A DNA stretch of 64,000 nucleotides, taken from Brevundimonas sp. G8. GTDB lineage: Bacteria > Pseudomonadota > Alphaproteobacteria > Caulobacterales > Caulobacteraceae. Below the pieces are notes generated by a model, which worked only from the letters and a program-made list of their open reading frames with translations, did not search any database and had not been told where the DNA came from. The position numbers were made by a program, and so were the translations under genes. Where the stretch lies: NCBI RefSeq assembly GCF_902506205.1, contig NZ_LR732816.1, positions 2,466,537 through 2,530,536 of the forward strand. The letters are read 5' to 3'. This document shows, in pieces, positions 2,806-33,714 of the stretch; the stretch's first letter is position 1; each line of letters starts with the position of its first letter.

Positions 2806-4104
2806 ATGAGCGACGATTTCAGCGCGCGTCTGGCCCTGCCTTATCTGGCGGCGGGGCAGATGCAGAAGCATGTGACCCTGAACACCGCCCTGACTCGGCT
2901 GGACGCCCTGTTGCAGACGGCGGTGGTCAGCCGGACAACGGCGGTTCAGCCGGGCGATGCGTCCGACGGCGACCTCTATATCCTGCCGGACGATGCAGAG
3001 GGCGCGGCCTGGGCCGGGCGGGCGGCTGGAACCTTGATACGGTTCGAGGGTGGCGGCTGGACCGTCGTGCCGACGCCCGACGGCCTGATTGCCGTGGTGC
3101 TGGACGAAGGCGCCGTCGTAGTGCGGGCCGACGCGGGCTGGGTATCGTTAGGCGAACGGCTGGGCGAGGTGCAGGACCTGGCGCGGCTGGGCCTGGGCAC
3201 GACCGCCGATGACGCCAACCCCCTGGCGGCCAAGATCAATGCCGCCCTGTTCACCGCGCGCGGTGTGGAGGAGGGCGGCGACGGCGATCTGCGTCTGACG
3301 CTGAACAAGGAGGCGGCGGGCGATGTCCTGTCGCTGCTGTTCCAGACCGGATACGCCGCCCGCGCCGAACTGGGCCTGATCGGCGAGGACGATCTGGGTC
3401 TCAAGGCCTGTGACGACGCCGGGACGTGGCGACAGGTATTCCGCGTGGACCGCGCGACGGGCCGCATGGCCTTCGACCACGGCGCGGTCAGGCGCGAGAC
3501 GACCCTGTTCACCAGCGACGGTGAGTACGCTACGCCACCTTGGGCGCGCTGGGTCGAGGTCGCCTGCGTGGGCGGTGGAGGAGGGGGCGGCGCCGGTCTG
3601 GCCGGACCGGCTGGAACCGCTCGCTTCGGCGGCGGCGGAGGCGGGGCAGGCGGTCTGACGCACGGCCTCTGGTCCATCGAAGACCTGGACGACGCCCTGG
3701 CGATCACTGTCGGGACGGGCGGCTTAGGCGGTGCCGCGGGTGGCGAGAGCCGGGTCGCGTCGGGCGGGACCGTCCTGTTACGCGCGACGGGCGGGGCCGC
3801 TGGAGCCACGGGAACATCCAGCGCGGGTGTGGGTGGCGCCGGCGGACTGGGCCTACGCGCCGCCAATCCCGGCGGCGGTTCGTCGATCACAACGACGGCG
3901 GCGACGGGTGGCGAAACCGCCTGTGCCGATGGGCCGGGCGGGGGAGGCGGGGGCGGCGTCTGCTGGTCGACCGGCGGGGGCGGCGGGGGAGGCGCGGTTG
4001 GGGCTTGTTGGGCCGTCGCGGCGCCGGCCAGCAACAGCGAGGAGGCCAAGGCGGTCAAGGCGATCTTCATGGGGAAATATCCTTTACGAGAAACGGCGTC
4101 TTGA
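2806..4104 (+). CDS. DUF2793 phage-tail/GTA-type protein with an anomalous C-terminus
   Basis: Residues 1 to about 130 match the DUF2793 module found in gene-transfer-agent and phage tail proteins (start FSARLALPYLAAGQMQKHVT, then the paired NTALTRLDALLQ). A middle region carries LFTSDGEYATPPWARWVEV, followed by a glycine-rich fold (GGGGGGGAG, NPGGGSSITTTAATGG) of the sort seen in tail-fibre tips. A good GGAGAG site precedes the ATG. From about base 3940 on, the reading frame is antisense to what looks like the 5' end of a secreted-protein gene on the minus strand. The last ~50 residues (VCWSTG to the stop) are therefore probably not native sequence. No other phage genes flank it, so this is a lone tail-like gene and not a prophage. 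Confidence 0.7.
   Translation: MSDDFSARLALPYLAAGQMQKHVTLNTALTRLDALLQTAVVSRTTAVQPGDASDGDLYILPDDAEGAAWAGRAAGTLIRFEGGGWTVVPTPDGLIAVVLDEGAVVVRADAGWVSLGERLGEVQDLARLGLGTTADDANPLAAKINAALFTARGVEEGGDGDLRLTLNKEAAGDVLSLLFQTGYAARAELGLIGEDDLGLKACDDAGTWRQVFRVDRATGRMAFDHGAVRRETTLFTSDGEYATPPWARWVEVACVGGGGGGGAGLAGPAGTARFGGGGGGAGGLTHGLWSIEDLDDALAITVGTGGLGGAAGGESRVASGGTVLLRATGGAAGATGTSSAGVGGAGGLGLRAANPGGGSSITTTAATGGETACADGPGGGGGGGVCWSTGGGGGGGAVGACWAVAAPASNSEEAKAVKAIFMGKYPLRETAS
3940..4070 (-). pseudogene. 5' fragment of a proline-rich secreted protein gene
   Basis: On the minus strand an ATG at 4070 with AAAGGA about nine bases upstream opens a textbook signal peptide (MKIALTALASSLLLAGAA, cleavage near TAQQ). 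Proline runs separated by VDQQT follow. Past roughly 3940 the frame merely reads the antisense of the DUF2793 gene, so only the beginning of the gene is left. The minus-strand frame stays open to 2976 only because antisense of GC-rich coding DNA rarely contains stops. It lies downstream of, and in the same direction as, the RcnB-like genes. It could still be expressed as a short secreted fusion, which I think unlikely. Confidence 0.5.
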
Positions 4105-4407
4105 AGGCGTTCGGGCGTCGTCGGGGATGGCGACGACGAGCAAGGTCGGAGCCCAACGAGGCCGTTTTTCGTCCCCGGTCCGTGGAGTAGTTCGGGGGAC
4201 GCGATGCTGGAAATCGTCTTGCGATCATTTGGCAAAACGCGTTCATGTGGGGCGTGGATACATGCCGATGCAGTCGCGCATGAGATCGCGACGCGGCCTT
4301 CCAAGGTCACGGCAGGGCCATGGTTTGGCGTTCGGAGACGCGCCAAAGGTAAGAAAAAGCCCGACGGCCGGGGGCCGTCGGGCTGAAGCTTCTAAATCGT
4401 CAGGCGG
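4105..4407. other. Intergenic region, no gene seen
   Basis: About 300 bases between the DUF2793/secreted-gene junction and the first RcnB-like gene. It contains the minus-strand terminator of the RcnB-like gene and presumably the promoter of the truncated secreted gene. No convincing reading frame with a ribosome binding site is present on either strand. Confidence 0.5.
4353..4384 (-). terminator. Rho-independent terminator of the repeat-containing RcnB-like gene
   Basis: A perfect 12-bp stem (AGCCCGACGGCC, 4358-4369, pairing with 4373-4384) with a 3-base loop. Five adenines at 4353-4357 become a U-tract on the minus strand. It lies just downstream of the minus-strand gene ending at 4408. 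Confidence 0.88.
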
Positions 4408-5466
4408 TCACCAGCGCCAAGCGTCACGGATGACGTCGACAATATAGCCGTCGTATTCGTCGATCAGATAGATGGTGTTGTCGACAGAAACCCAGCGCGT
4501 GCCCTCGGGCGGATAGCCCAGGCCGTAGGTGCGCCAGTCGTTTAGCTGATAACGCCAGAAGGTGTCCGGCAGATACTGGCCGACCGACCATGTGCGGTTC
4601 CAATACGAGCGCGGGACGCTGTAGTAGCCCCAGCCCGGCGCGAAATAGAAGCCGGCGCGGACGCCGCTGTAGCCTCTGAAGCGGTTGTCGTTCCTCCACC
4701 AGTCCGAGCGGTGGTTGCGATAGAAGTCCCGCCGCCACTGATCGCCATTGAAACGCTGGCGGAACTCGCGGTGCTGGCGGTCGCGGTCGCGACCGTTGTT
4801 CCAGCCTGAGCCGGGGCGGTTGGGGCGTTGACCGCCGGCGTTCGGACGGTCGGGGCGGTTCCAGCCATTGCCGGGACGATCCGGGCGTTGGCCGCCGGTG
4901 CTGGGGCGGTCAGGACGATTCCAGCCGCCTTCGGGACGGTCAGGGCGCTGGCCGCCGGTATTGGGACGGTCAGGCCGGTTCCAGCCGCTCTCGGGTCGTT
5001 CGGGACGTTGCCCCCCGGTGTTGGGACGGTCGGGCCGGTTCCAGCCGCCTTCGGGACGGTCTGGGCGTTGGCCCCCGGTGTTGGGACGGTCGGGCCTGCT
5101 TCCGCCGCCTTCGGGACGGTCTGGGCGTTGGCCGCCAGTGTTGGGACGATCAGGCCGGTTCCAGCCGCCTTCGGGACGATCCGGGCGCTGTCCGCCGTTA
5201 CTGGGGCGGTCGGGACGCTCTCCGCCGGACGGCCGTTCGGGGCGGGGCGTGTTGTTTTCCGGTCGGCTGGGGCGTTCAGCACGCGGTTGGCGGGGGGCGT
5301 CCTCGCGGCCCATCTGGGGGCGTTCCGGGCGGTTCATGCCACGGGCGCGGCCTTCGCGACGCGGCTGTTCCTGCTGAGCCTGGTCCTGGGCCAGGGCCTG
5401 AACGGGCGCCGCGAGCGGGCCGGAGACGGCGGCGATGGCGGTGAAAGCCATCAAGAGGCGTTTCAT
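4408..5466 (-). CDS. RcnB-family secreted protein with seven 20-residue repeats
   Basis: A 352-residue protein starting MKRLLMAFTAIAAVSG with a cleavable signal peptide ending near VQALAQ. Residues 84-223 are seven copies of a 20-residue unit (RPDRPNTGGQ then RPDRPEGGWN), basic and proline-rich and probably extended. The last ~110 residues resemble RcnB (nickel/cobalt-efflux accessory) proteins: GVRAGFYFAPGWGYYSVP, then PEGTRWVSVDNTIYLID and a final VDVI segment. The family is periplasmic; metal homeostasis is inferred from the family name only. The ATG at 5466 is preceded by AGGAA; an upstream in-frame start would add 42 residues lacking signal-peptide character. A second RcnB-like gene lies upstream in the same direction, separated by a terminator. 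Confidence 0.82.
   Translation of the reverse strand: MKRLLMAFTAIAAVSGPLAAPVQALAQDQAQQEQPRREGRARGMNRPERPQMGREDAPRQPRAERPSRPENNTPRPERPSGGERPDRPSNGGQRPDRPEGGWNRPDRPNTGGQRPDRPEGGGSRPDRPNTGGQRPDRPEGGWNRPDRPNTGGQRPERPESGWNRPDRPNTGGQRPDRPEGGWNRPDRPSTGGQRPDRPGNGWNRPDRPNAGGQRPNRPGSGWNNGRDRDRQHREFRQRFNGDQWRRDFYRNHRSDWWRNDNRFRGYSGVRAGFYFAPGWGYYSVPRSYWNRTWSVGQYLPDTFWRYQLNDWRTYGLGYPPEGTRWVSVDNTIYLIDEYDGYIVDVIRDAWRW
4798..5217 (-). repeat. Seven tandem 60-bp coding repeats
   Basis: Seven consecutive 60-bp units inside the RcnB-like gene, each encoding two 10-residue halves (RPDRPNTGGQ and RPDRPEGGWN). Copies differ by a few residues (PSN, PNT, PST, PNA; EGGWN, EGGGS, ESGWN, GNGWN, GSGWN). Length is exactly 420 bases with no frame breaks. 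Confidence 0.9.
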
Positions 5467-5570
5467 GGTCTTTGGTTCCTGCACGCCGGTTCTCCGGCGG
5501 CTTGAAACGATGATGCGGGCGTGTCGATGAACCCAGGCTGAACATTGTTCGCAATCAACGGACTGTCCGG

Positions 5571-5604
5571 AAAAACAGAACCCCGCAGACAAGGCCTGCG
5601 GGGT
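5571..5604 (-). terminator. Rho-independent terminator of the second RcnB-like gene
   Basis: Stem ACCCCGCAG (5580-5588) pairs with CTGCGGGGT (5596-5604) across a 7-base loop. The adenine run at 5571-5575 gives a U-tract on the minus strand. It sits 25 bases after the stop of the minus-strand gene ending at 5630. Confidence 0.85.
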
Positions 5605-5629
5605 CCGAAAGGTCGATCTGTGACGGGGG

Positions 5630-6214
5630 TTAGTAGACGCCCGACAGGACGCTGGCGATCAGGCCGCTGGCGACGGCGATCAGCAGGATGTCGTTGCCGG
5701 CGTGGACATAGCGATAGCCGCGCGGGGCTTCGCGTAGGCCATAAACATAGGGGTCGCGCACATAGTAGCTGCGATACTGGTTGGGCAGATAGCCGCCCGT
5801 GCGCCAGCGATAGCTGCTGTAGCGCGGCTCGACCCGGTAATAGCCGTAGCTGGGCGCATACCAGTAGCCCGCGCGCGGACCGTTGTAGCCTCGGAAATCG
5901 GAGCGCCCGCGCCACCAGTCGCGATTGTTGCGGTCCCAGCGGTCGTTGCGCCAGTCGCGGCGATCGTCACGGCGTTCGGCCCGGTAGTCATGACGGTCGT
6001 CGCGGCGGTCCTGACGATAGTCCTGGCGGTTGTCGTAACGGCCGTTGCGCCAGTCGCGGTTATCGTTGCGACGTTCCTGACGGAAATCGCGGCGGTCGTC
6101 GCGACGGTCCTGACGATATTCGCGGCGGTCGCGGTCCTGCGCCTGGACGAGCATCGGCACGGCCGTGGTCGACAGGGCGATGGCGACGACGGCGGCCTTG
6201 GTGAGGCGGTTCAT
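5630..6214 (-). CDS. RcnB-family secreted protein, Arg/Asp-rich
   Basis: A 194-residue protein. Signal peptide MNRLTKAAVVAIALSTTAVP ends near VQAQ. Residues 25-105 are a highly charged tract of repeated RRDDRRD / YRQDRR blocks. The C-terminal domain has the RcnB signature: RGYNGPRAGYWYAPSYGYYR, then PRGYRYVHAGNDILLIAVASGLI ending in a short hydrophobic segment. A periplasmic or envelope location is likely. GGAG lies eight bases before the ATG at 6214. It shares domain architecture with the next gene downstream but has a different low-complexity linker, so the two look like diverged duplicates. The true ligand is unknown. Confidence 0.82.
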   Translation of the reverse strand: MNRLTKAAVVAIALSTTAVPMLVQAQDRDRREYRQDRRDDRRDFRQERRNDNRDWRNGRYDNRQDYRQDRRDDRHDYRAERRDDRRDWRNDRWDRNNRDWWRGRSDFRGYNGPRAGYWYAPSYGYYRVEPRYSSYRWRTGGYLPNQYRSYYVRDPYVYGLREAPRGYRYVHAGNDILLIAVASGLIASVLSGVY

Positions 6215-6540
6215 CTTCGTGCTCCATTCTGGGCCGACGACGGACATGCCGAACCGACCCGTTAATGATGCTGAAGTTCGGTCCGGCCGCCTGAACGCGT
6301 GCTGAACAGCTGTGTCAGGTTCCGAAAGCGGTCTCGACGCTGCGTGGAACGCGCGAGCGAGGTGTGAACGAGAGATTTCGCAGAGATTTCCGAGTGCTGA
6401 ATCGCGCCGGAAGTATTCATCTCTGCTTTACTGAAAAGTCGGTGCGACGGCGTTCGGCGTTAACTTTAACTTCAAACCGGCGGTATTTGATGGCGTCTCA
6501 GAGGCGGGCCCAGAATGGCGCCCGATCAGGAGATACGGTG
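6215..6540. other. Divergent promoter region between RcnB-like and Sel1-like genes
   Basis: A 326-base region without a supported gene. Its only clear structures are a direct repeat AGAGATTTC at 6371-6379 and 6382-6390 (period 11) and an AT-richer stretch with TTAACTTTAAC near 6471. A reading frame through it into the Sel1-like gene exists, but has no ribosome binding site or conserved-looking sequence. Confidence 0.5.
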
Positions 6541-6846
6541 ATGACCGCGCAAGAATTGGCGCACGACCTGCAGGCCCCGCAAGACGGTCTGCCGCTGCCG
6601 ACCCCGGACATGTCCGGCGACGACCTGTTCAAACTGGGCATGATGTATTCGGCCGGTTCGGGCGGTTGCCCGATGGACCGGGTGTCGGCCCATATGATCT
6701 TCAACCTGGCGGCCATGAAGGGCTCGATCGAGGCGCGCGTTTACCGCCGCGAGATGAGCATGGAGATGGAGCGCGAGGAGATCGCCGAGGCCCAGAAGGC
6801 CGCACGGCGCTACATCGACATGGGCGTGGTTCAGCTGGTCGCCTGA
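6541..6846 (+). CDS. Small Sel1-repeat protein
   Basis: A 101-residue cytoplasmic protein with no signal peptide. The centre, DDLFKLGMMYSAGSGGCPMDRVSAHMIFNLAAMKGSIEAR, follows the Sel1/TPR-like spacing (LGxMYxxGxG then AxxxFxLAAxxG). The C-terminus is a charged helix. Such short Sel1 proteins are usually protein-protein adaptors; no partner is evident here. The ATG at 6541 is supported by AGGAGA at 6528-6533; upstream in-frame starts lack a ribosome binding site. It converges on hfsD with ten bases between the stop codons. Confidence 0.75.
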   Translation: MTAQELAHDLQAPQDGLPLPTPDMSGDDLFKLGMMYSAGSGGCPMDRVSAHMIFNLAAMKGSIEARVYRREMSMEMEREEIAEAQKAARRYIDMGVVQLVA

Positions 6847-6856
6847 GCCGACCGGT

Positions 6857-7591
6857 TCAGAACTGTGCGAAGCCGCTGCCGTTCGATCCGTTGATCGAAT
6901 AGCTGAAGCCGATGGGCAGGGCGGCGCGCACCTGGGTGAAGAAGGCCGCCAGTTCGCCCAGCGTCGAGCGCGGCACGAAGATGATGTCGCCCCGGCGCAG
7001 GGAAACGACCTCGCCGCGACGCGGACGCAGGTCAACGACGCGCATCATGCGCGACCCGCCCGGACCGCGACGGATCAGGGCCACGCTGTCCTGGCGTGAC
7101 GTGGGCGCGAAGCCGCCGGCCTGGATGACCGCCTGATAGGCGTCCAGATCGCCGATCATTTCGAAGACGCCCGGCGTGCGGACCTCGCCATCGACCCAGA
7201 CGCGGATCGGGCCGGCCTGGCGCAAGGTCACCTCGACCGTCGGCCGCACCAGTTGCGGCGCATAGGCCGTGGACACCACTGACTGAAGCTGGGGCAGGGT
7301 GCGATCCGCCGCCATGACCGAACCGATCAGGGGCAGGGCGATGCGGCCGTCGGGGCCGATCTTGACCGTGCGCGTCAGTTCCGAGGCCGTAGGGGTGGCC
7401 ACCTCGATCTCGTCGCCGGGGTAGAGCAGATATTCCGGCTCCTGGTCCGTCCAGTCGGCGAAGGGAATGCCGGGGAAGTCTCCGTTCATGGGGCGTTCGA
7501 CGCGCTGCGGACCGCTGGCGCACGCCGCCAACGAGGCGGCGAGGGAGGCTGAACCCAGGGTCAGCAGGAACAGACGGCGATCTGACAGCAT
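6857..7591 (-). CDS. hfsD: Outer-membrane polysaccharide export lipoprotein (HfsD, Wza-like)
   Basis: A 244-residue protein with a lipoprotein signal ending SLAAC, so it is lipidated. It has a polysaccharide-export (Poly_export) domain beginning EYLLYPGDEIEVAT and SLBB-type segments (GPIRVWVDGEVRTPG, then AYQAVIQAGGF). In Caulobacter, HfsD is the outer-membrane channel for holdfast polysaccharide. Divergent placement next to an HfsA-like chain-length protein and an HfsB-like ATPase supports that identity. I start at the ATG at 7591, which gives a normal lipoprotein leader; a TTG 36 bases upstream is the alternative. A CtrA-box-like sequence lies between it and hfsA. Confidence 0.82.
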   Translation of the reverse strand: MLSDRRLFLLTLGSASLAASLAACASGPQRVERPMNGDFPGIPFADWTDQEPEYLLYPGDEIEVATPTASELTRTVKIGPDGRIALPLIGSVMAADRTLPQLQSVVSTAYAPQLVRPTVEVTLRQAGPIRVWVDGEVRTPGVFEMIGDLDAYQAVIQAGGFAPTSRQDSVALIRRGPGGSRMMRVVDLRPRRGEVVSLRRGDIIFVPRSTLGELAAFFTQVRAALPIGFSYSINGSNGSGFAQF

Positions 7592-7642
7592 GAGAATCGG
7601 TCGGCCTCGACGAGAGATTTGAGCCAACGTCGCCGATCATGG

Positions 7643-7658
7643 GTAATCATCGGTTAAC
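7643..7658 (+). promoter_or_regulatory. CtrA-box-like site between hfsD and hfsA
   Basis: GTAA, seven bases, then TTAAC. The Caulobacter CtrA consensus is TTAA-N7-TTAAC, so eight of nine fixed positions match. It sits in the divergent hfsD/hfsA promoter region. Binding is inferred only. Confidence 0.4.
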
Positions 7659-7712
7659 GCCGGTGGGCGAAGGGTGGCTGGAACAAGCCTTTCAAGGGAT
7701 TCGGCCCGCTCG

Positions 7713-9152
7713 ATGCGTTCCACGGCACACGTCACGGCAAGACCACGCTACGGCGTGCTGGACGTCATCGGCCTGCTGTTCCGCGAGCTGTTGCTGATGG
7801 TCGTGGTCTTCGTGGTGATCCTGGCGCTGGGGTTCGCGGCGGCGATGACGCTGAAGAAGAGCTATACCGCCACCGGATCGGTCTTCGCCGGGGTGGGCCA
7901 GGAATACGTCTATCAGCCGCGCGTCGGCACGGCCGAGCGGGGCCAGGCGCCGCAGGGCGACGAGGTCGCCAACTCCGAAGCCGCCATCCTGGGGTCGGGC
8001 GCGGTGCGCCAGAAGGTGGTCGAGGCCCTGGGCCCTGCCGCCATCCTGGGCGAACAGACCAAGGGCGGGCCGCAGAAGGCCGAGGCGGCCGCGCGGCGAG
8101 TGATCGGGACCAGCCTGGCCGTCGCCACGGCGCCGGGCAGTGCGGTGATCCATCTCAGCTACAAGGCCGATGACCCTGAAAGGGCGGCGCGGGTTCTGAA
8201 CGCCGTGATCGAACAGTATCTGGTCTATCGCCGCGAAGTGTTCCGCGACAAGACGCCGGCCATCGCCACCCAGAGGGTCGCCTTCGAGGACGAGTTGGGC
8301 AATGCGGATCGGGCCTACGAGACCTTCCTGTCGTCCAACGACATCGGTGATTTCGCCGCGGCCAAGGCGACGCTGGCGGCGACCTATCAGACGGTCTTCA
8401 CCGACCGGATGTCGACGCAGAGCCTGTTGAACCAGACCGCCCAAAGGCTGAACACCCTGGTGGCGCAGCAGGCGGGGACCCCGGCGGAGGTGGCGCTGCA
8501 ACAGGATCTGAACATTTCGGCCCAGGATCAGGTGCTGCAACTGCGCACCGAACGCGAGCAACTGCTGTCGCGCTATCAGCCCGACGCCCAGCCGGTAAAG
8601 GACATTGAGGCGCGCATCGGCCAGCTTCAGGCCTATGTCTCGACCGGAACCGCCGTGGGACCAAAGGAGGTCCGTACCGGGCCGAACCCCGTCTGGACCG
8701 AGTTGGAGACGACGCGGATCAATACGCGGGCCGAGCGAGATTCGCTGGCGGCGCGCCTGTCGGTCCTGGATCGCCAACTGAACGATATTCGCGCCCGCCA
8801 GACGCGGTTGACCGCGCTGGAATCCGAGAACACGACCCTGGCCGGCAATCGCGAGGTGCTGAGCGCCTCGATCCGCGAGTTCCAGCAGCGCGAGACCCAG
8901 AGCCGGGCCGACAACGCCCTGGTCGCCGCCGGCGCCGACAATGTCACCGTCATCGAACGCGCCCAGCCGCCGTCGACGGGCAAGAGCCTGAAGATCCCGC
9001 TGCTGGCGGCGGTCTTCCTGTTCGCGGGCTTCACCGCCCTGTGCGTGGGCCTGTTGCGGGTGTTCACGCGTCGCGGCTTCACGACGCCGGCCTCGATGAG
9101 CCGGACGCTGGACATGCCGGTTCTGGCCGTCGCGCCCGCCAAGGCGGCGTAG
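7713..9152 (+). CDS. hfsA: Polysaccharide co-polymerase / chain-length protein (HfsA, Wzc-like)
   Basis: A 479-residue inner-membrane protein with Wzz topology: a first membrane helix (LLLMVVVFVVILALGFAAAM), a long periplasmic stretch rich in coiled-coil helices (EREQLLSRYQPDAQPVKDIEARIG and neighbours), and a second helix near the end (IPLLAAVFLFAGFTALCVG). No ATPase domain follows; that role falls to the separate hfsB 47 bases downstream. In holdfast systems HfsA joins HfsD and HfsB in the export complex. I chose the ATG at 7713; a GTG at 7674 would add 13 residues and cannot be excluded, as neither start has ideal Shine-Dalgarno spacing. Confidence 0.8.
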   Translation: MRSTAHVTARPRYGVLDVIGLLFRELLLMVVVFVVILALGFAAAMTLKKSYTATGSVFAGVGQEYVYQPRVGTAERGQAPQGDEVANSEAAILGSGAVRQKVVEALGPAAILGEQTKGGPQKAEAAARRVIGTSLAVATAPGSAVIHLSYKADDPERAARVLNAVIEQYLVYRREVFRDKTPAIATQRVAFEDELGNADRAYETFLSSNDIGDFAAAKATLAATYQTVFTDRMSTQSLLNQTAQRLNTLVAQQAGTPAEVALQQDLNISAQDQVLQLRTEREQLLSRYQPDAQPVKDIEARIGQLQAYVSTGTAVGPKEVRTGPNPVWTELETTRINTRAERDSLAARLSVLDRQLNDIRARQTRLTALESENTTLAGNREVLSASIREFQQRETQSRADNALVAAGADNVTVIERAQPPSTGKSLKIPLLAAVFLFAGFTALCVGLLRVFTRRGFTTPASMSRTLDMPVLAVAPAKAA

Positions 9153-9199
9153 CGACAGTCGTGCTAGGCTGAGGGCTTAGGGAGCGCCTTGGCGATTCG

Positions 9200-9901
9200 A
9201 TGGTCGATCTGACTTCAGAAATGGCGGGCCTTTGGGCGGCGCTGGGACCGGCGCCGGCGCATCGCGCGCGCGTCATCCAGTTCGCGTCGGCCGCGACAGG
9301 CGAGGGCGTCTCAACCGTGGCGCGCGAGTTTGCGCGTCTGGCGGCCGTGCGGGCGAGAAAGCCCGTCTGGCTGATCGACGGCGACCTGGCCCAGCAGGGG
9401 CAGCTGGAGACGGTCTCGGCCGAGCCGGATCGGTTCGGACAGGTCGGCAAGGCGGCCCAGGCCTCGCCCGACGGATCCAGCTTCTACGCCGTGACGCCGC
9501 GCGTGACGGGGCGCGACGGCAAGCCGGTGCCGGATTCGCGACTGTTGACGGCGCGGTCGTGCCTGGGCGGACGGTTGTGGGTGACGCATTTCCATATGGA
9601 GGCGCTGCGGTCCGGACACCGGGTCGAGGCGGTCGGAGAGCCTCGCTATTGGGAGGCGCTGCGGCCTCATGCCGACACCATCGTCATCGACGCCCCTGCA
9701 GCCGACCGCAACGACATGGCGATCATCCTGGCGCCCTTCGTGGACATGACGGTGTTGGTCGTCGCGGCCGAGAGTACGGCGGCCAGCGCCCCGGTCATCC
9801 TACGCGACGAGATCGAGGCCGTGGGCGGTCGGATCGCCGGGGTCGTGATGAACCGCTCGACCTACAAGCCGCCAAGCTTTTTGCAGCGACTGACGGGCTG
9901 A
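9200..9901 (+). CDS. hfsB: HfsB-like ParA/BY-kinase-fold protein with degenerate P-loop
   Basis: A 233-residue cytoplasmic protein with the fold of bacterial tyrosine-kinase ATPase domains. The Walker A position reads ATGEGVSTVARE, so the usual lysine is replaced by valine. Walker A' VWLIDGDLAQQ and Walker B DTIVIDAPAADRND are still recognisable. No C-terminal tyrosine cluster is present. It is the cytoplasmic partner of HfsA in holdfast export, judged by position directly after hfsA. The missing lysine suggests weak or no kinase activity and a structural role. The next gene downstream begins about 120 bases later and is unrelated to polysaccharide synthesis. Confidence 0.75.
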   Translation: MVDLTSEMAGLWAALGPAPAHRARVIQFASAATGEGVSTVAREFARLAAVRARKPVWLIDGDLAQQGQLETVSAEPDRFGQVGKAAQASPDGSSFYAVTPRVTGRDGKPVPDSRLLTARSCLGGRLWVTHFHMEALRSGHRVEAVGEPRYWEALRPHADTIVIDAPAADRNDMAIILAPFVDMTVLVVAAESTAASAPVILRDEIEAVGGRIAGVVMNRSTYKPPSFLQRLTG

Positions 9902-9927
9902 CCCGCTTCCAAATGCGGTGATTTCGC

Positions 9928-9943
9928 TGTCCGATTTCGGACA
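9928..9943. promoter_or_regulatory. Perfect palindrome upstream of the FAD/DUF1543 cassette
   Basis: TGTCCG-ATTT-CGGACA, a perfect 6-bp inverted repeat with a 4-base spacer, 79 bases before the start of the FAD/NAD(P)-binding gene. It could be an operator or the tail of an hfsB terminator; no T-tract follows. Confidence 0.4.
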
Positions 9944-10022
9944 TTCGCTTAGAAAATGAGGGGGTTGAGCTGGAAATGGGCTCAGCTGCGACACCTTTAC
10001 GCACGTCGCGCATTGTGCGGCC

Positions 10023-11687
10023 ATGACAAAGTCAGTCGCATTCGTCGGAGCGGGACCGACAACCCTTTATGCGCTTCATGCCCTTCTCTCGCGAGGCGCC
10101 GGCGCGGCGCAGATCACGGTCTTCGAGGCGAGCCAGACCGCCGGATGCGGCAGCCCCTACAGTTCGGATTGGAACGACAGGGCGATGCTTTCGAACATCG
10201 CCAGCATCGAGATTCCTCCGCTGCGCGAGACGTTGGCGGATTGGCTCGCTACACGGACCACGCCAGAGCTTGAGGCGATGGATGTCGATCGTGCGTCTCT
10301 CGACGAGCGGACCTTCGTTCCACGCATCGCCCTGGGCCGGTACTTCGAAAGCCAGTTCGCGATCATGGTGGACCAGGCCCGCGCCGCCGGTTTGAACATT
10401 GAAGTCAGAACGGGATGCCGCGTCATCGACGCCGCCAACAGAAATGAAGGTTTGGAGCTAACCTTCATGTCGCCGCCGTCGCAGCGCGTGACGAAGGCCG
10501 TGTTCGACCACGTCGTCCTGGCCACCGGTCACCAATGGCCGTCGCGCCAGCAAACCCAGCCCGGCTATCTTCTCAGCCCGTGGCCAGCTTCAGTCCTGGC
10601 GCACATTTCAGCAACGAACGTCGGCATACGGGGTTCGTCGCTGACGGCCATCGACACGGCGGTCGCACTCGCCACGTCACATGGAGCGTTCGTCCAACGT
10701 GACGAGCAACTGGTCTATCAGCCTGGGCCGGATACTGAGGGCTTTCGCATCACCATGATGTCGCGGAAGGGCCTGCTTCCGGAGGCCGACTTCTATTTCC
10801 CGCTGCCGCATCCGCCGCTTGCGTATTGCACTCCGCAGGCGGTCGCCGCCGCCATGGACCGAGGGCGGGTCGGACTGCTGGATGCGGTCTTCGATCTTTT
10901 TCGACGTGAGCTGATTGATCTGGATCCCGACTACGCCGCCGAAACGGGATTGCAGGACGCCACGCTAGAGACCTTCGCCGAGGCCTATTTCGCCCGGCGC
11001 GCAGCGGTCGATCCCTTCGTCTGGGCCGTCGCCAACCTGGAGGAGGCGCGGGCGAACCACGCTGCAAAGGTGACGGTGGCTTGGCGCGACGCCATCCTTC
11101 GGATGCACGAAGTTGTCGCTGCCATCGTGCCCCATTTGGATACAGAGCAGTTCGACCGTTTCAACCGCGCCTTCAAACCGATCTTCGTCGACATCTATGC
11201 CGGCGTGCCGCATGAATCGATCGAGCGAATGCTGGCCTTGCACGCAGCCGGCAAGCTGGAAGTCCTGGCCCTTGGCGACGATTATGAAGTCGACGCCCAT
11301 TGTCCCGAGGGCGGGGCCCGCTTGACGGTCGAGGGCGCGACCAGACATTTCCCGGTCTTTATCGAGGCGACGGGTCAGGCGGCGTTGAGCGGCATTCAGT
11401 TCCCGTTCCTGTCACTGTTGGAACAGGGAATCGTTCGAGACGAAGTCGCGAATGATGCGCCCGATGTCGTCAGGGGGATCGCCGTCGATGACTCGTTTCG
11501 GCCGGTCAACGCACCTCTGCCCATAGACAGGCTGTTCTGTCTGAGCCTGCCGTTTCTCATGGGGCGTCATCCCTTCGCACAGGGGATCACCAGTTCACAC
11601 GAAATGGGTGGGATCGTCGGTCGGCGACTGGCGTTGATCCTGGATACCGCAAAGCCTGCGGTCGATCTCGCCGAAACGGCGGCCTGA
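10023..11687 (+). CDS. FAD/NAD(P)-binding protein (NAD_binding_9 type)
   Basis: A 554-residue protein. Its N-terminus has a Rossmann motif, VAFVGAGPTTLYALHAL, and a dinucleotide-binding context (ITVFEASQTAGCGSPYS). A second nucleotide-binding region follows around DHVVLATGHQWPS and GIRGSSLTAIDTAVAL. This is the layout of PF13454 proteins, predicted flavoprotein oxidoreductases of mostly unknown substrate. The ATG has no strong ribosome binding site. It is followed 11 bases later by a DUF1543 gene in the same direction, so the two form a cassette. Together they occupy the gap between hfsB and the hfsEFG-type genes, where Caulobacter carries hfsC and hfsH. Nothing links them to polysaccharide chemistry. 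Confidence 0.72.
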   Translation: MTKSVAFVGAGPTTLYALHALLSRGAGAAQITVFEASQTAGCGSPYSSDWNDRAMLSNIASIEIPPLRETLADWLATRTTPELEAMDVDRASLDERTFVPRIALGRYFESQFAIMVDQARAAGLNIEVRTGCRVIDAANRNEGLELTFMSPPSQRVTKAVFDHVVLATGHQWPSRQQTQPGYLLSPWPASVLAHISATNVGIRGSSLTAIDTAVALATSHGAFVQRDEQLVYQPGPDTEGFRITMMSRKGLLPEADFYFPLPHPPLAYCTPQAVAAAMDRGRVGLLDAVFDLFRRELIDLDPDYAAETGLQDATLETFAEAYFARRAAVDPFVWAVANLEEARANHAAKVTVAWRDAILRMHEVVAAIVPHLDTEQFDRFNRAFKPIFVDIYAGVPHESIERMLALHAAGKLEVLALGDDYEVDAHCPEGGARLTVEGATRHFPVFIEATGQAALSGIQFPFLSLLEQGIVRDEVANDAPDVVRGIAVDDSFRPVNAPLPIDRLFCLSLPFLMGRHPFAQGITSSHEMGGIVGRRLALILDTAKPAVDLAETAA

Positions 11688-11698
11688 AGTGAGGGTAA

Positions 11699-12202
11699 AT
11701 GAGACTGTTTGCGATCTACATCGGCGGGGAGCATCCGGCCGCGAACATCGAGGTGCATGACATGCGGTTCGTCGCCGCCCCCTCTATCGAGGCGACGCAT
11801 GAGACCTTGCTCGCCCAGTGGTGGGGTCGCGAGGGGACGCTGCACATCGACTGCTGGTCGGAGATTTCGCAAGCGGACGGCTATGAGATCAGCCTTCTGC
11901 CCGAGCCTTACGAGGGCAAGGAAAAACTCTATTACGTAAACCTCGGCGGCTATGATGGCGTGGCCTTCGCCGAGCAGCATCGGAATGTCTTCGTCGTCGC
12001 CGACAGCCTGCCTGCGGCCAAGGCGCGCGCCATCAAACAGGCGACGGGATGGACCGACGCGCATCGCGACGAAATGTATGAGGCAGAGCAGGCCTTTGCG
12101 CTGGACGACGCCGCTCATGCCGTACGCCTACATATTCACCTTAAGCCGAGCCTGCTGATCGGCGATCCAAACTTCGCCTGCCATTACACGCCGATTCACT
12201 GA
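11699..12202 (+). CDS. DUF1543 domain-containing protein
   Basis: A 167-residue soluble protein with the DUF1543 opening MRLFAIYIGGEHPAANIEVHD, then MRFVAAPSIEATHETLLAQWWG and a DGYEISLLPEPY segment. The family has no assigned function. GAGGG lies just before the ATG. It probably shares a transcript with the FAD/NAD(P)-binding gene upstream. Its stop converges with the glycosyltransferase gene on the other strand, with nine bases between them. Codon choice in this and the preceding gene seems less GC-extreme than in the hfs genes on either side (visual impression only). Confidence 0.75.
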   Translation: MRLFAIYIGGEHPAANIEVHDMRFVAAPSIEATHETLLAQWWGREGTLHIDCWSEISQADGYEISLLPEPYEGKEKLYYVNLGGYDGVAFAEQHRNVFVVADSLPAAKARAIKQATGWTDAHRDEMYEAEQAFALDDAAHAVRLHIHLKPSLLIGDPNFACHYTPIH

Positions 12203-12211
12203 GCCACCGGG

Positions 12212-13144
12212 TCAGGCGTCGGTGCGTCTGATCATCGCCGCGCCGTAGAGTTTCGGCTCGAAGCCCTTGGTCCAGAAGACTTTGCCGAGGCCTCGGGCGC
12301 AGCGGTCGTAGGTGTGGGCGCGGTCGGGGCGGCGCAGGAGGGCGGACGCCAGCGACAGGGCGCCCCAGACGCCGGTCTGGGCCAGGCCGACCAGCATCCA
12401 TTTGACGACGCCGGGCCAGTCGCGGCGGGCGGCGGCCATCTGGGTCGGGCTCTGGCCATAGGCGAAGGCGCGGGTCAGGGCGTAGTTCAGGGTGGCGCGG
12501 TGGGGCGGGGCGAACTCGTCCGCCCAGGCCTCGGCGGCCCAGCCGAACCGGCCGCCGCGCGCCGACAGGGCGGTGAACAGCCGGTCGTCCTCGCCGCCCG
12601 TCTCGTTCATGGCGACATCGAAGGGCGCGTCGCCGGGCAGGGCGGTCGCGCGCACCATCAGACTGTTGCCGCAGCCGTGGATGGTTTCGGTCAGGCCGGT
12701 CTCGTTCGGGCCGTCGCGGCCGAAGAATCGCTCCAGATAGGTGGTGGTCCAGCCGGTGTTTTGCGGCACACGCCCGTGAATGGGGCCGAAGACGACATCG
12801 GCGCCGGTCTGGACTTGCGCGTCCAGCAGGGCAGCGAGCCAGCCGGGCGAGGCGGCCTCATCGTCGTCCAGGAAGGCGATCAGGGGCGCGTTGGTTGCAG
12901 ACAAGCCGATGTTGCGCGCCGTCGCCACGCCGGGGACGGGGGCGTGGGCGTAGGTCAGGGAGACGGGCGCCTCGGCGCGCAGGCGCTCTATCAGGACGGC
13001 GGCGGAGCCTTGCGGATCATTGTCCGCGATGACGATGGCGGCGACGCGGTGCAGCGATCCGGTCTGGGCGAAGACGGATCGCAGGGCGCGCTCCAGGCTT
13101 TCGGGGCGACGCAGTGTGGGGATGATGACGGCGACATCGCGCAT
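12212..13144 (-). CDS. Family 2 glycosyltransferase of the holdfast locus
   Basis: A 310-residue GT-A glycosyltransferase: N-terminal VAVIIPTLRRPESLERALRSV, a DNDPQG nucleotide site, LIAFLDDDEAASPGWL with the metal-binding DDD, and an acceptor-side NETGGEDDRLF. The C-terminal third has amphipathic or membrane-associated helices. It should transfer a sugar to a lipid-linked holdfast repeat in the cytoplasm. Its ATG lies two bases after the stop of the upstream hfsG-like gene, so it is the last gene of the hfsE-hfsF-hfsG-type operon. It could correspond to the HfsL-type enzyme located elsewhere in Caulobacter, but I cannot confirm orthology. Confidence 0.8.
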   Translation of the reverse strand: MRDVAVIIPTLRRPESLERALRSVFAQTGSLHRVAAIVIADNDPQGSAAVLIERLRAEAPVSLTYAHAPVPGVATARNIGLSATNAPLIAFLDDDEAASPGWLAALLDAQVQTGADVVFGPIHGRVPQNTGWTTTYLERFFGRDGPNETGLTETIHGCGNSLMVRATALPGDAPFDVAMNETGGEDDRLFTALSARGGRFGWAAEAWADEFAPPHRATLNYALTRAFAYGQSPTQMAAARRDWPGVVKWMLVGLAQTGVWGALSLASALLRRPDRAHTYDRCARGLGKVFWTKGFEPKLYGAAMIRRTDA

Positions 13145-13146
13145 GG

Positions 13147-14079
13147 TCAGACGGCGTCCGCATAGACGGCGGCGCGGTAGAGCCGCAGGGCGAAGGCGCG
13201 GGCCTTGACCGGCAGGACCGTCGTCAGGGCGGCCTGTTTCATCAGGCGGCGCGCCAGGGGCAGGCCGGGCAGGCGTTTCAGGGCGCGCGCGGCCTTGTAG
13301 CTGGGGTAGGTCTGGACGATGGCGGGGTGCAGGGCGACGACGCGGGCGAAGTTGCCGGCGCCCTGGTCGAACTTGCGCGCCAGGTCCTCGACGGTGTCCA
13401 GGCCCATATGGGTGGCCGGATTGTCGATATGGACGACTGGAAACCGGCGCGAGACGCGCATGGCCCACTCTACGTCCTCCCAGCCCCAGCCGCTGAAACC
13501 GGGATCGAAGGATTCGGCGGCGAAGACGTCACGGCGCACCAGGAGGTTGGAGGTGTAGACGTATTTCTCGGGCGTCAGGGCGCGCTGGGACGCCGGCAGG
13601 CATTCCGAGGCGCCGGACAGGGCGCGGTGGACGGCGAAGCGGGCGTCGGTCGGGGCTTGATCGAGAGAGAAGCCGCCGAAGGCCACGGCGGGGGCGTCGT
13701 GGGCGACGAGGCGCAGCCAGGTTTGGAGGAAGACAGGCGTGTCGGGCCGCATGTCGCTGTCTAGGAACAGATAGGCCTCGCCCCGGGCGGCGGTGGTCAG
13801 GCGATTGCGACCCCTGGCCCGACCCTCGTTAGCGGCCAGGCTGATCAGGCGGACGGGCAGTTGCAGGGCGTCGAGGGTCGCCTGAAGGCGCGCCGTCAGA
13901 GCGGCGTCGGCGGTGCCGTCGTCCAGCAGGATCAGCTCGACCGCGCCGGACAGGGCAGGGGCCTCGGTCTCCAGTTGGCGCAGCAGGGCCTGGGGATCGT
14001 CGCGCAGGAAGGGGATCAGGACCGAGATCGTCGGCCTCGCCTGCGACCAGGCGGCGTTGTCGTGGATATGGGCGCTCAT
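13147..14079 (-). CDS. hfsG: Family 2 glycosyltransferase, HfsG-like
   Basis: A 310-residue GT2 enzyme: PTISVLIPFLRDDPQALL at the start, VELILLDDGTAD, GRARGRNRLTTAARG, and LFLDSDMRPD carrying the metal-binding DSD. A galactosyltransferase-like GFSGWGWEDVEW motif provides the catalytic acid region. HfsG extends the lipid-linked intermediate of holdfast polysaccharide. Identity is inferred from position directly after the flippase. Its ATG overlaps the flippase stop (ATGA), indicating translational coupling, and the next gene follows after two bases. Confidence 0.75.
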   Translation of the reverse strand: MSAHIHDNAAWSQARPTISVLIPFLRDDPQALLRQLETEAPALSGAVELILLDDGTADAALTARLQATLDALQLPVRLISLAANEGRARGRNRLTTAARGEAYLFLDSDMRPDTPVFLQTWLRLVAHDAPAVAFGGFSLDQAPTDARFAVHRALSGASECLPASQRALTPEKYVYTSNLLVRRDVFAAESFDPGFSGWGWEDVEWAMRVSRRFPVVHIDNPATHMGLDTVEDLARKFDQGAGNFARVVALHPAIVQTYPSYKAARALKRLPGLPLARRLMKQAALTTVLPVKARAFALRLYRAAVYADAV

Positions 14080-15536
14080 GCCGGCACGCTCCGACGCGCG
14101 CGGATCAAGCGCAGCAGCACGTCACGGACGCCGGCGGCGTTCAGCGTCAGGGCCACGGCCGCATAGACGAGGCCGCCCACGCCGGCGTCCAGCATCAGCT
14201 CCACGAACCCGCCGATGGGGGGCAACATCCAGACGACCCCGGCCATGACGGCCGACGCGATGCCACAGCGGATCAGCGCCTCCCACGGCATGGGCAGGGC
14301 GATGGCGCGGCGGCTGAGCAGGAGGCAGGCGATCAGGCCGATGGCGAAGCTGGCGGTGGTCGAGACGGCCGCTCCGACGACGCCCAGCCGGGGGATCAGA
14401 ACTAGGTTCAAAGCGACGTTGCACAGGGCCGGAATGGCCATGGTGACCAGCAGCAAGCCGGTCTTCTTGCCCAGGGTGAAGCCGAAGCCGAAATAATAGG
14501 CGATCATGCCGGACAGGAAGGACGAGGCCGCGATCCAGGGCGTGACCACGGCGGCGGCGGCGCGCAGGTCCTGGCCGATCATCAGTTCCGCCATCGGCCG
14601 CGCGACCATCGACAGGCCGACGGCGGCGGGCAGGCCGATCAGGATCAGGGTCGAACCCTGCTCCAACGCGGTCTGGCGCAGGGCCTCGCGGCCACCGCGC
14701 TCCAGCGCCATGACCATGGCCGGCGCACCGGCCGCCCCTAGCCAGATGAAGATCACGTCCAGGGTCCGGTTCGCCAGGCTATAGCTGGCGTGATAGGCGC
14801 CGACCGCCCCTGCATCCATGAAGGCGGCCAGCAGGAACCGGTCCGTCGAGGCCAGCACCACGGCCAGCGTCAGCGACGCCGCGATCGGATAGCCGTAGGC
14901 GGCATAGGCCTTGAGCCGCGCCCGATCCACGGCGGCGCCGGTCGCCTGGCGCAACTCGCCGGGCAGGATGAAGGGCAGGGCGAACAGGGGGGCGATGGCC
15001 AGGCCCAGCAGGGGTGAGGCCGCGCCGGCCCCGGCGACGGCGAACCCGGCGCCGACCAGAAAGCCCAGGATGGAGACGCCGATGTCGACGCGGGCCGCTT
15101 TCGACACTTCGCCCGCCGCTCGGAACCGCTCCTGCGCCAGCTTGGCCAGGTTGCGCACCGGCGCGCCGGCCAGGCCGAAGGCGACGGCGATCTTGAGCGC
15201 GGGCGGCAGGGGCGCCAGCCACACCACCAGGGCGGCGATGGGCGTGAAGACGGCGATGATGGCGAAGGAGGTGCGGTACAGGCTGGCGAAATGGGCGGCC
15301 AAGCCCTCGGGCGTGCGTTCGGTCGCCCAGAAGCGGGCCATCGACGCCTCCAGCCAGCTGAAGGTCACGGTGTGGGCCAAGGTGGTGACCGAAAAGGCCA
15401 GGGCGTAGTGGCCGAAGTCGTCGGCGCTGAGCAGGCGCGTGAAGACGAAGATGGTCAGGAAGCCGACCGCGCCCTGAACGATCTGGGCCGGCAGATAGCC
15501 CCAGACGCCGCGCCAGAACATGCGCTTCTCGCTCAA
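14076..15536 (-). CDS. hfsF: Polysaccharide flippase (HfsF, Wzx-like)
   Basis: A 486-residue integral membrane protein with about 12-14 hydrophobic segments and the Polysacc_synt family beginning (WGYLPAQIVQGAVGFLTIFVF then TRLLSADDFGHYALA). HfsF flips the lipid-linked holdfast oligosaccharide across the inner membrane. A TTG at 15536 overlaps the hfsE stop as TTGA, typical of coupled genes; the ATG at 15521, preceded by GAGAAG, is a close alternative giving a protein five residues shorter. It is the second gene of the hfsE-hfsF-hfsG-GT2 block. Confidence 0.82.
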   Translation of the reverse strand: MSEKRMFWRGVWGYLPAQIVQGAVGFLTIFVFTRLLSADDFGHYALAFSVTTLAHTVTFSWLEASMARFWATERTPEGLAAHFASLYRTSFAIIAVFTPIAALVVWLAPLPPALKIAVAFGLAGAPVRNLAKLAQERFRAAGEVSKAARVDIGVSILGFLVGAGFAVAGAGAASPLLGLAIAPLFALPFILPGELRQATGAAVDRARLKAYAAYGYPIAASLTLAVVLASTDRFLLAAFMDAGAVGAYHASYSLANRTLDVIFIWLGAAGAPAMVMALERGGREALRQTALEQGSTLILIGLPAAVGLSMVARPMAELMIGQDLRAAAAVVTPWIAASSFLSGMIAYYFGFGFTLGKKTGLLLVTMAIPALCNVALNLVLIPRLGVVGAAVSTTASFAIGLIACLLLSRRAIALPMPWEALIRCGIASAVMAGVVWMLPPIGGFVELMLDAGVGGLVYAAVALTLNAAGVRDVLLRLIRARRSVPA

Positions 15537-17017
15537 CGCACGGCCGCCCGGTCGCCCAGCAGGACGGGGATGGTGACGGCGATGACCCACAGATCCAGCC
15601 AGAAGGACTGGCGCTCAATGTATTCGATGTCCAGCTGAACGCGCTCTCGCACCTGAGCCTCGGTGTCCACCGGACCGCGCGAGCCCTTGATTGCGGCCCA
15701 GCCGGTCATGCCGGGCTTGATGCGATGGCGGTGGGCGTATTCGGCGACCAGCAGGGCGGATTCGGTCTCGCCGGTCTTCATGCCGATGGCGTGGGGGCGC
15801 GGGCCGACCAGAGACATCTCGCCCGACAGGACGTTGAATATTTGGGGCAACTCATCCAGGCTTGTGGCGCGGATGAAGCGGCCGACGCGGGTGACGCGGT
15901 CGTCGCCGGGACAGACCTGGCGGCTGGCGGTGGCGTCGGCGGCCTCGTGGCGCATCGAGCGGAACTTCCACACCACGATGGTCTCATGGTTGAATCCGTG
16001 GCGACGCTGGCGGAAGAAGACGGGGCCGGGGCTGTCCAGACGCACCGCCAGGGCGACCAGGGCCATGACGGGGGCGGCGACCACCAGGGCGACCGCGCCG
16101 ACCAACAGGTCCTGCATCCGCTTGTTGAAAGCCCGACGATCCGGGTCGACCGGCCCGTCCAGCGACGCCAGAGGCGCATTGCCCAGCCGGTTCAGCACCC
16201 CGTCGCCGCCCAGTTCCGAATCGACCAGCACCGTCAGCGGATTGGGCAGGGCGTTCAGTCTCTGGGTCAGGTCGCGCACCCGCTGGCCCGCGTTGGGATC
16301 GATGGCCAGGACGATCCGGTCCACATAGGGGGTCATGCGATGGGTCAGCAGGGCGTTGGCGTCGCCCAGCACCGGCACGCCGGCGACGCTGTCGGGCGAA
16401 CGGGCCAGACGATCGTCGAACACGCCCAGCACATTCATGTCGCGCCGCTCCAGCGCCCGCTCGATCAGGATCCTGGCGTTCCGGGTGGCGCCGACGAGGA
16501 CGATATTGGGCGACAGGGCGCCCAGACGCCGCCAGCGCGCGATCACCGCCAGCCACAGCCCATGCAGCACAATCAGGGCCGCCGTCGTCGTCAGCGCCCA
16601 GGGTGCGACCACGTCCAGAGCCGGTCGGTCCAGCAGCCATCCCAGGATCAGGGCGACGCCGGCCGAGACCAAGCCGACGCCCGCGACGCCGAACAGATGC
16701 AGGACCCAGGGCGTGTCGCGACCGAATCGATAAAGCTGCAGCGCCCGCATCGACGCGAGAACCAGCACTGCGCCTCCGATTACGGGCGCTGCATCTCCGA
16801 CGGTGATGTCGGCTAAGCCCATCGGCTGGATCGCCAGGATCGCGCCCAGCGCCAGACCGACGACGACCAGCACATCGACCAGCCTGAAATAATGGGCCGA
16901 CAGCCGCACGGCCGAGCGTTCGCGCGCATTCAGCCACACCTCGGGCCGGAACGGGCCACGCGCGGCGCGGCCCTTGGGCGGCGCGTCGGCGGCGAGACTG
17001 GCGGGGCGGTCGAGCAA
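15533..17017 (-). CDS. hfsE: Undecaprenyl-phosphate sugar-1-phosphate transferase (HfsE)
   Basis: A 494-residue polyisoprenyl-phosphate hexose-1-phosphate transferase that starts lipid-linked holdfast assembly. The N-terminal half has about four membrane helices and a CoA_binding_3-like region (NIVLVGATRNARILIERAL). The C-terminal catalytic domain has FNKRMQDLLVGAVALVVAAP, the DSPGPVFFRQRRHG motif, FRSMRHEA, DELPQIFNVLSGEMSLVGPRP and KPGMTGWAAI. The domain order matches WbaP/PssY-type enzymes. The first ATG/GTG/TTG in the frame is a TTG at 17017 without a clear ribosome binding site, so the exact start is uncertain. It heads the minus-strand glycan operon. Confidence 0.82.
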   Translation of the reverse strand: MLDRPASLAADAPPKGRAARGPFRPEVWLNARERSAVRLSAHYFRLVDVLVVVGLALGAILAIQPMGLADITVGDAAPVIGGAVLVLASMRALQLYRFGRDTPWVLHLFGVAGVGLVSAGVALILGWLLDRPALDVVAPWALTTTAALIVLHGLWLAVIARWRRLGALSPNIVLVGATRNARILIERALERRDMNVLGVFDDRLARSPDSVAGVPVLGDANALLTHRMTPYVDRIVLAIDPNAGQRVRDLTQRLNALPNPLTVLVDSELGGDGVLNRLGNAPLASLDGPVDPDRRAFNKRMQDLLVGAVALVVAAPVMALVALAVRLDSPGPVFFRQRRHGFNHETIVVWKFRSMRHEAADATASRQVCPGDDRVTRVGRFIRATSLDELPQIFNVLSGEMSLVGPRPHAIGMKTGETESALLVAEYAHRHRIKPGMTGWAAIKGSRGPVDTEAQVRERVQLDIEYIERQSFWLDLWVIAVTIPVLLGDRAAVR

Positions 17018-17143
17018 AGGGCGATCCAGAGGCGAAGAACGGCCGCGATACTGCCGGTATCGCCTCTATGTCGCGTTAACGTGGACAGTTTCGCCCGAAC
17101 CGGATTGCGCGACGCATCAGCCTCCGCTATCGACGCCGTCGCA

Positions 17144-17235
17144 GGAGACGTGGCCGAGTGGCTGAAGGCAACGGTTTGCTAAATCGTCGTACCCCGTAAG
17201 GGGTACCGAGGGTTCGAATCCCTCCGTCTCCGCCA
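17144..17235 (+). tRNA. tRNA-Ser (anticodon GCU)
   Basis: A 92-base class II tRNA. Acceptor GGAGACG pairs with CGTCTCC, followed by discriminator G and an encoded CCA. The anticodon loop TTGCTAA carries GCT. A long variable arm built on GTACCCC/GGGGTAC and a T-arm GGTTCGAATCC complete the fold. It reads AGC/AGU codons. Confidence 0.96.
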
Positions 17236-17269
17236 CCTTTTCCCGACATTTGACGAAGTCGCCGGTTGA

Positions 17270-20430: not shown

Positions 20431-20437
20431 AGGGACA

Positions 20438-20488
20438 TTGTGCGGATAATCGCACTATGCCGATAGATGCTTGCGCGAAAAATCGCAC
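20438..20488. promoter_or_regulatory. Tandem DctD-type upstream activator sites
   Basis: Two related 18-mers: TTGTGCGGATAATCGCAC at 20438-20455 and TTGCGCGAAAAATCGCAC at 20471-20488. They are identical at 15 of 18 positions, the first has GTGCG/CGCAC dyad symmetry, and their starts lie 33 bp apart, about three helical turns. The paired arrangement is the one known for DctD sites upstream of rhizobial dctA. They lie between dctB and dctA, about 185-235 bases before the dctA start. Confidence 0.6.
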
Positions 20489-20670
20489 GATGGTCTCGGG
20501 GTGAGGGTGTGTCGGTAAGAAAAGCGACGTGATTTCATTACGATAGACTGGATGTCGCATTCGCTTTTCAAAGCGACCTTAGTCATCGAAGGTCTGTCGA
20601 ACGGAGCGTGACGAAGATCGCGCCCATCGAGGAGACTGCGAGGATCGCCCTCGCAAATCAGGAGCCTTTC

Positions 20671-22026: not shown

Positions 22027-22088
22027 TCCGCCGAAACTGTTTTTAGCAAGGACCGTCGATCAACGACGGCCTGGGAGAGGAAACCATA

Positions 22089-25136: not shown

Positions 25137-25149
25137 GAAGGATAGGGCC

Positions 25150-26490: not shown

Positions 26491-26525
26491 TCGGCGCCAT
26501 CCGTCGGTAGACGGATCAATCGTCG

Positions 26526-29152: not shown

Positions 29153-29162
29153 GGATCTGACG

Positions 29163-33701: not shown

Positions 33702-33714
33702 GCGAACACAGTCG

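Follow-up and report, generated by a model that had tools for sequence, protein, structure and literature searches.

In the part of the SkewIT study used here, the "complete" genome of Escherichia coli O121 RM8352 is described as containing a multi-Mb inversion whose ends no reads cover (PMC7717575). Among natural bacterial translocations and inversions, mobile elements are named as the main drivers in the portion of a survey that we draw on (PMC12863080). DUF2793, according to the section of the literature on alphaproteobacterial gene transfer agents that concerns it, is the tail fibre of RcGTA (PMC10883770). Here we describe a Brevundimonas genome assembly in which a DUF2793 gene is interrupted by a block of about 82 kb, and in which a second gene is split in the pattern of a large inversion. 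A literature search found no published record of this misassembly or rearrangement.

Results

A DUF2793 frame that runs into the antisense of another gene

The window analysed here is the whole 64,000-nucleotide stretch from 2,466,537 to 2,530,536 of a Brevundimonas assembly held as a single sequence of 3,321,310 bp. This genome is called G000 below, and G019, G009, G100 and similar handles denote relatives, the nearest being Brevundimonas intermedia B-10 (G019; NZ_SPVH01000001.1). The open reading frame listing has, at 2806-4104 on the + strand, a frame of 432 aa that is open throughout. Its residues 26-113 match PF10983 (DUF2793) with 75.2 bits against a Pfam cut-off of 27 (E 3.8e-21), and its N-terminal part also matches Gly_rich_2, under the cut-off. 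A complete DUF2793 gene would have the glycine-rich C-terminus of the relatives and about 450-500 aa; the end of this frame is instead antisense, since the minus strand from the ATG at 4070 translates to MKIALTALASSLLLAGAATAQQAPTAPPPPPPPVDQQTP..., by eye a signal peptide followed by poly-Pro. The features of the junction, called J1, are as follows.

2806..3953, + strand: N-terminal part of the DUF2793 gene, about 380 codons (PF10983; 84% identity to G019 over residues 1-408; collinear with relatives)
3958 (genome 2470494), + strand: end of the collinearity of DUF2793 with contig C1 of G019 (nucleotide comparison)
3931-3953 (genome 2470467-2470489): quadruplex-like motif at J1 (motif scan)
3937..3962, no strand: seam J1, G-rich; the DUF2793 matches (to query 183) overlap the proline-rich-gene matches (from query 158)
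3954..4070, - strand: start of a proline-rich secreted protein gene (signal peptide and poly-Pro), truncated at the seam (orthologue comparison)
3954..64000, + strand: within-window part of a misplaced block of ~82.2 kb (genome 2470489-2552706), which extends 22170 bp past the window

The sequence-only reading had described a DUF2793 frame passing into the antisense of a minus-strand signal-peptide gene, and the frame, the Pfam match and the G019 orthologue bear this out. The G-rich tracts that it took as the switch region are verified at 3934-3957 and 3973-3993, and since the two homologies overlap at 3937-3962 the switch point can be placed there. Likewise, comparison with the full-length genes of relatives agrees with its view that both genes lack their 3' ends at this seam. 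Both halves are orthologous coding sequence, so the 432-aa frame is no chance frame. Also in the window, at 4408-5592 on the minus strand, lies an RcnB-domain gene with a long RPDRP-type repeat array, whose frame has 394 aa, against 422 aa in G019, where the gene lies about 0.8 kb from the end of gatB.

When the 432-aa frame was used in a translated search, 58 of 61 genomes (60 relatives and its own) were matched, and in the eight top-scoring relatives the match stops at residues 398-408. The 331-bp junction was matched end to end by G000 only among 131 Brevundimonas genomes, its own included, and the junction pattern had 0 matches in viral contigs. Both halves lie at separate places in at least five relatives among the matches listed (G009, G100, G107, G149, G151), and in G019 they are on different contigs. 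In contig coordinates of the one-contig genomes, the DUF2793 gene and the proline-rich gene are about 0.62 (G009), 0.31 (G100) and 0.85 Mb (G151) apart, so the parts joined in G000 are far from each other in relatives, as an assembly mis-join predicts. Complete orthologues of the proline-rich gene have 107 aa in G019, 107 aa in G100 and 106 aa in G151; in G009 the gene pattern was unmatched, yet DNA similarity is present.

Furthermore, 53 DUF2793 loci could be named in relatives, 35 of them with closed frames and 18 running off a contig end. The usual full-length glycine-rich tail, with the downstream gene 73-205 bp on, is found in 34 of the 35 closed frames, and 15 of the 18 run-off loci end in the glycine-rich part, past residue 260. 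None of the 35 has the fused tail: 34 differ from it by the usual tail, the reverse of the sister strains with the same C-terminus after the glycine tract that the sequence-only reading named as evidence against itself. In the 35th, Brevundimonas nasdae JCM 11415, the frame is closed but broken: DUF2793 stops within its first glycine tract and continues into a downstream gene. This is a draft genome, and the break may be a different deletion or, once more, an assembly fault at a like tract. In the one-contig genome G151 (C1:2447500-2453000), DUF2793 closes after 316 aa through an apparent frame shift past the poly-glycine tract, either a sequencing error or slippage.

Both missing 3' ends are elsewhere in the genome

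A search of G000 with a relative's DUF2793 C-terminus as query gave a match at 2,552,747-2,552,992 (+) with E 2.7e-12, the runners-up having E 0.126 and 0.626. At genome 2552755-2552995 the frame reads ...RAAGGVPGAAGQAAAKASLSMVGGGGGGG...GAVRITAVG up to a stop codon, and the gene that normally comes next follows it. The proline-rich gene has its 3' end at genome ~50,064-50,175, beside gatB, in a segment (50,064-51,810, minus strand) with 94% identity to G019. Both ends are still in G000, 82 kb and about 0.9 Mb off when measured on the circle.

Comparison with G019 yields three collinear runs around the block. G000 up to 2,470,494 corresponds to G019 C1 down to 235,595; then 2,470,489-2,552,703 corresponds to C6 1,372,170-1,449,462, with small gaps; and from 2,552,815 onwards G000 returns to C1, from 235,476 downward. 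In G019 the neighbours of the block are, on its left, the proline-gene end with gatB and, on its right, a gene run that in G000 is joined to that pair at about 49943-50064: G000 up to 49,943 corresponds to C6 from 1,449,951, and 50,064 then corresponds to C6 1,372,091. Compared with G019, an ~82-kb block is inside DUF2793 in G000 and absent from its gatB-side home, with three seams, namely DUF2793 N-part to proline-gene start, block end to DUF2793 C-part (2552706-2552815), and former neighbour to proline-gene end and gatB (49943-50064). Little sequence is unmatched at the ends of the alignments with G019: about 118 bp of DUF2793, 78 bp of the proline gene, 24 bp of a GTA_TIM gene (see below) and about 490 bp of an intergenic stretch.

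We considered the block as a mobile island, which its collinearity with G019 save for small gaps does not support, and a simple inversion across DUF2793, which we reject because the C-part retains the + orientation 82 kb downstream. A further break of collinearity, at G000 28,295 (G019 C6 1,471,191), lies outside any G-rich tract, 1428 of 2088 random intervals being equally G-rich. In G002 a single contig carries both gatB and the far block end, equally oriented and separated by about 104 kb; in G009, G012, G020 and G035 their distances or orientations differ, so gene order varies in the genus, and this counts in favour of natural rearrangement.

Repeats and an inverted copy at the seams

The right end of the block falls inside a dispersed repeat of ~240 bp (G000 2552464-2552706), whose copy is cut at the seam. 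There are four further copies in G000, with 96-99% identity, and several in G019, G002 and G020. A break at the exact repeat edge was rejected, because the four other G000 copies and the G019 copy continue past the break point. Another dispersed repeat, about 150 bp long, has some thirty copies in G000, mostly of about 80-89% identity.

At the 2,552,707 seam there is, moreover, a 46-bp inverted copy of the start of DUF2793-C (arms 2,552,707-2,552,752 and 2,552,780-2,552,825), with a fold z-score of -13.3. Such a copy would be expected from fold-back break repair, and likewise could arise from chimeric reads where a contig ends. Perfect inverted repeats of at least 25 bp with a loop below 100 bases number 8 in 1.57 Mb of G000, so the copy at the right seam is rare, not unique. 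J1 shows the G-rich overlap only as shared sequence. On inspection, no mobile element was seen at the seams.

An apparent 1.52-Mb inversion

In G019 the GTA_TIM gene (gene 15 of the GTA cluster) is an unbroken frame of 1232 codons; in G000 it is split, with its N-part at 556,301 and the remainder from 2,080,704; the homologies end at G019 C2 133,323 and 133,298. Each part faces part of a second gene: on one side a signal peptide and passenger with a proline-rich linker (2,079,101-~2,080,700, +), on the other a beta-barrel-like part (555,282-~556,300, -). Together these read as an autotransporter-like gene. Two split genes joined crosswise give the pattern of an apparent 1.52-Mb inversion, with ends in G- or C-rich coding DNA, that contains dnaA. 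Compared with G019, the GTA_TIM gene of G000 also has a 1041-bp in-frame internal deletion (G000 2082656), for which contig order gives no explanation.

Runs of N and G-rich tracts

Runs of N were surveyed in 1.57 Mb of the 3.32-Mb genome (1.17 Mb, then 0.40 Mb more). There are three, of 100 (557,633-557,732), 99 (843,876-843,974) and 100 (1,352,006-1,352,105), along with one isolated N at 409,104, and there are 0 N in 421,504 bases of G019. G000 is by these three runs of about 100 N a gapped assembly, as a mis-join would lead one to expect. The place of the first run, which lies 1.3 kb from the inversion end at 556301, is taken in G019 by about 15 bp; these 100 N thus resemble a placeholder and not withheld bases. 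None of the three block seams has an N. In one-strand G/C content the flanks of the first two runs are in the top 1.4% (60 of 4192 background points), and those of the third (1,352,006) are ordinary, with 2005 of 4192 background points as high; read from the sequence, a proline tract with C runs directly adjoins this third run.

Random intervals of equal span with one-strand G content as high as at the seams are few for DUF2793 (18/2085), the proline gene (32/2085) and the GTA_TIM gene (58/2107), and for the two sides of the autotransporter-like gene 0.03% and 2.7% of windows are as extreme. The block's right end, on the repeat side, is ordinary, with 524 of 2039 random intervals as G-rich. 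Quadruplex-like motifs number 79 in 770,000 bases of G000 and 47 in 421,504 bases of G019; they are not depleted in G000, so G-rich tracts are no general failure of this assembly. In G000 such a motif lies on the seam at J1 and within about 60 bp of both inversion ends, and there is none at the other two block seams or at the 28,295 break; in G019, among the places examined, only GTA_TIM has one within 120 bp. A strict quadruplex motif at every break was rejected on these grounds, and we accordingly restrict the claim to G-rich tracts.

Selection, frames and replication

Compared with G019, the DUF2793 N-part has a dN/dS of 0.161, lower than in any other of the 36 pairs that nine sequences give (range 0.161-0.311), and both halves of the gene in G000 are open frames with no sign of decay. 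Such a low value in a broken gene means that the break is very young or not there; the relaxed constraint that an old translocation would leave was not found. A frameshift survey of 240 ORFs gave 132 full matches, 28 without match and 80 not full, many of these being spurious antisense frames; three frameshift candidates, once aligned, were by eye intergenic or near gene starts. Ku is present in G000.

dnaA is at 855 kb and the best skew switch near 3.2 Mb. With the origin set at dnaA, the replichores are about 2.34/0.98 Mb as assembled and would be about 1.42/1.90 Mb once the inversion is reversed. A skew fit without a fixed origin places the origin near 1.24-1.28 Mb, with assembled arms of fairly similar length, so the argument from replichores depends on dnaA marking the origin, and their imbalance is weak support for a misassembly. 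The skew signal is itself weak, with 44 of 59 samples in line with the best fit. GC skew could not judge between the arrangements, since the polarity of the block fits its new place and its old place alike and the inversion includes the origin, leaving the fit unchanged. A seam at the replication terminus was set aside, the wider sample having put the skew switch near 3.2 Mb. A scan for dif with an E. coli site as query found none; a 16S search had no match in a test that missed the Caulobacter control too, and rRNA motifs were unmatched in the stretches examined.

Discussion

Errors of contig order and orientation at hard-to-sequence G-rich tracts probably explain both the fused frame and the apparent inversion. 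A piece of ~82 kb with ends in hard-to-sequence or repeated DNA, the proline-rich gene on one side and the dispersed repeat on the other, would have been inserted in DUF2793, within the glycine-rich region, and the flanks left at the piece's home beside gatB would have been joined to each other; the apparent 1.52-Mb inversion would be a like error, of orientation. The N runs would be scaffold placeholders and the N-free seams mis-joins, and the cell itself would carry the ordinary arrangement with an intact DUF2793 gene. This explanation draws on the three seams, which account for the broken ends, on runs of ~100 N within a "single contig", one of them so close to an inversion end, on the extreme one-strand G content of most seam tracts, on other drafts that break here, as the run-offs inside the glycine-rich part do, on a dN/dS that is not raised in the DUF2793 N-part, and on the SkewIT precedent in a "complete" E. 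coli genome. The sequence-only reading was right to suspect genome decay or assembly collapse; of the two, the assembly is favoured as the cause, in the form of a misplaced block and not of a collapse. Several observations count against an assembly cause, namely the block seams without N, the repeat cut inside, the 46-bp inverted copy and the presence of Ku, as well as the ordinary flanks of the third N run and the ordinary G content at the block's right end. The two broken genes may, in addition, belong to one dispensable system (GTA), which also counts against it, as do the undepleted quadruplex-like motifs, the skew of the block, which suits either place, and the 1041-bp deletion in the GTA_TIM gene.

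The rival reading is a real and very recent rearrangement, in which breaks at G-rich coding tracts and at the dispersed repeat would have been mis-repaired through Ku end joining or fold-back replication, 82 kb being captured and the 1.52-Mb arc inverted. We regard this as unlikely. The ends are accounted for under it, little sequence is missing at the breaks, one seam has an inverted templated copy, Ku is at hand and the block seams have no N; the independent deletion in the GTA_TIM gene and the separate one in B. nasdae, starting from the first glycine tract, also speak for it. However, the N runs point to a gapped assembly, two of the three lying in similar tracts, neither half of DUF2793 shows decay (low dN/dS, open frames), the B. 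nasdae case is likewise a draft, and the seams, on inspection, show no mobile element. Also unlikely is the broader idea that glycine- and proline-coding G-tracts are natural fragile sites in GC-rich Caulobacterales, where rejoining by Ku or fold-back would have moved 82 kb and inverted 1.5 Mb while GTA and surface-protein genes tolerated the break points. A genuine lineage-specific C-terminus, recruited from antisense, could appeal to a frame open for 432 codons; it is very improbable, given that the normal C-terminus and the usual downstream gene are intact 82 kb away and that no closed-frame relative has the fused tail (34 of 35 usual, 1 with a different deletion). As for a deletion between the G-rich tracts of two convergent neighbours, which the sequence-only reading proposed, the switch of both genes in such tracts agrees with it, and we give it practically no credence: in none of the six relatives with both halves placed are the genes adjacent (different contigs in G019, 0.31-0.85 Mb apart in G009, G100 and G151), and the 3' ends supposed to have been deleted are located at distant places in G000 (2,552,755-2,552,995 and ~50,064-50,175), which refutes it. 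Whether the junction is a misassembly or a real rearrangement, it is improbable that the 432-aa fusion functions as a gene.

The analysis suggests that the single sequence representing a species is a scaffold with gaps and with two probable large-scale errors of order, at places where proline- and glycine-rich genes resist assembly. If so, work on synteny, gene fusions or pseudogene numbers that uses this genome would yield false fusions (DUF2793 with antisense, autotransporter with GTA_TIM), and a false loss of GTA genes would also be deduced. If the rearrangement were real, G-rich coding tracts would be rearrangement hot spots in GC-rich bacteria.

As in the RcGTA tail fibre, the broken gene of G000 has a DUF2793 domain, and the genome has a GTA_TIM gene; unlike that fibre, the Brevundimonas protein is cut in two and is known here from sequence alone (PMC10883770). 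The relocation of a block of core genes and the inversion of an arc are shared with natural translocations and inversions as the consulted part of the survey treats them, whereas the mobile elements that mainly drive those cases were not seen at the G000 seams on inspection (PMC12863080). A further parallel is the E. coli O121 RM8352 genome, as covered in the relevant part of the SkewIT paper: in both, a single-sequence assembly has a large inversion relative to its relatives, found by comparison with a sister genome (PMC7717575). There the verdict could use gaps in read coverage at the ends, whereas ours is reached from sequence comparison only; and, in contrast to that case, the inversion in G000 contains dnaA, so that the skew fit is not altered by it, and it is accompanied by a displaced 82-kb block (PMC7717575).
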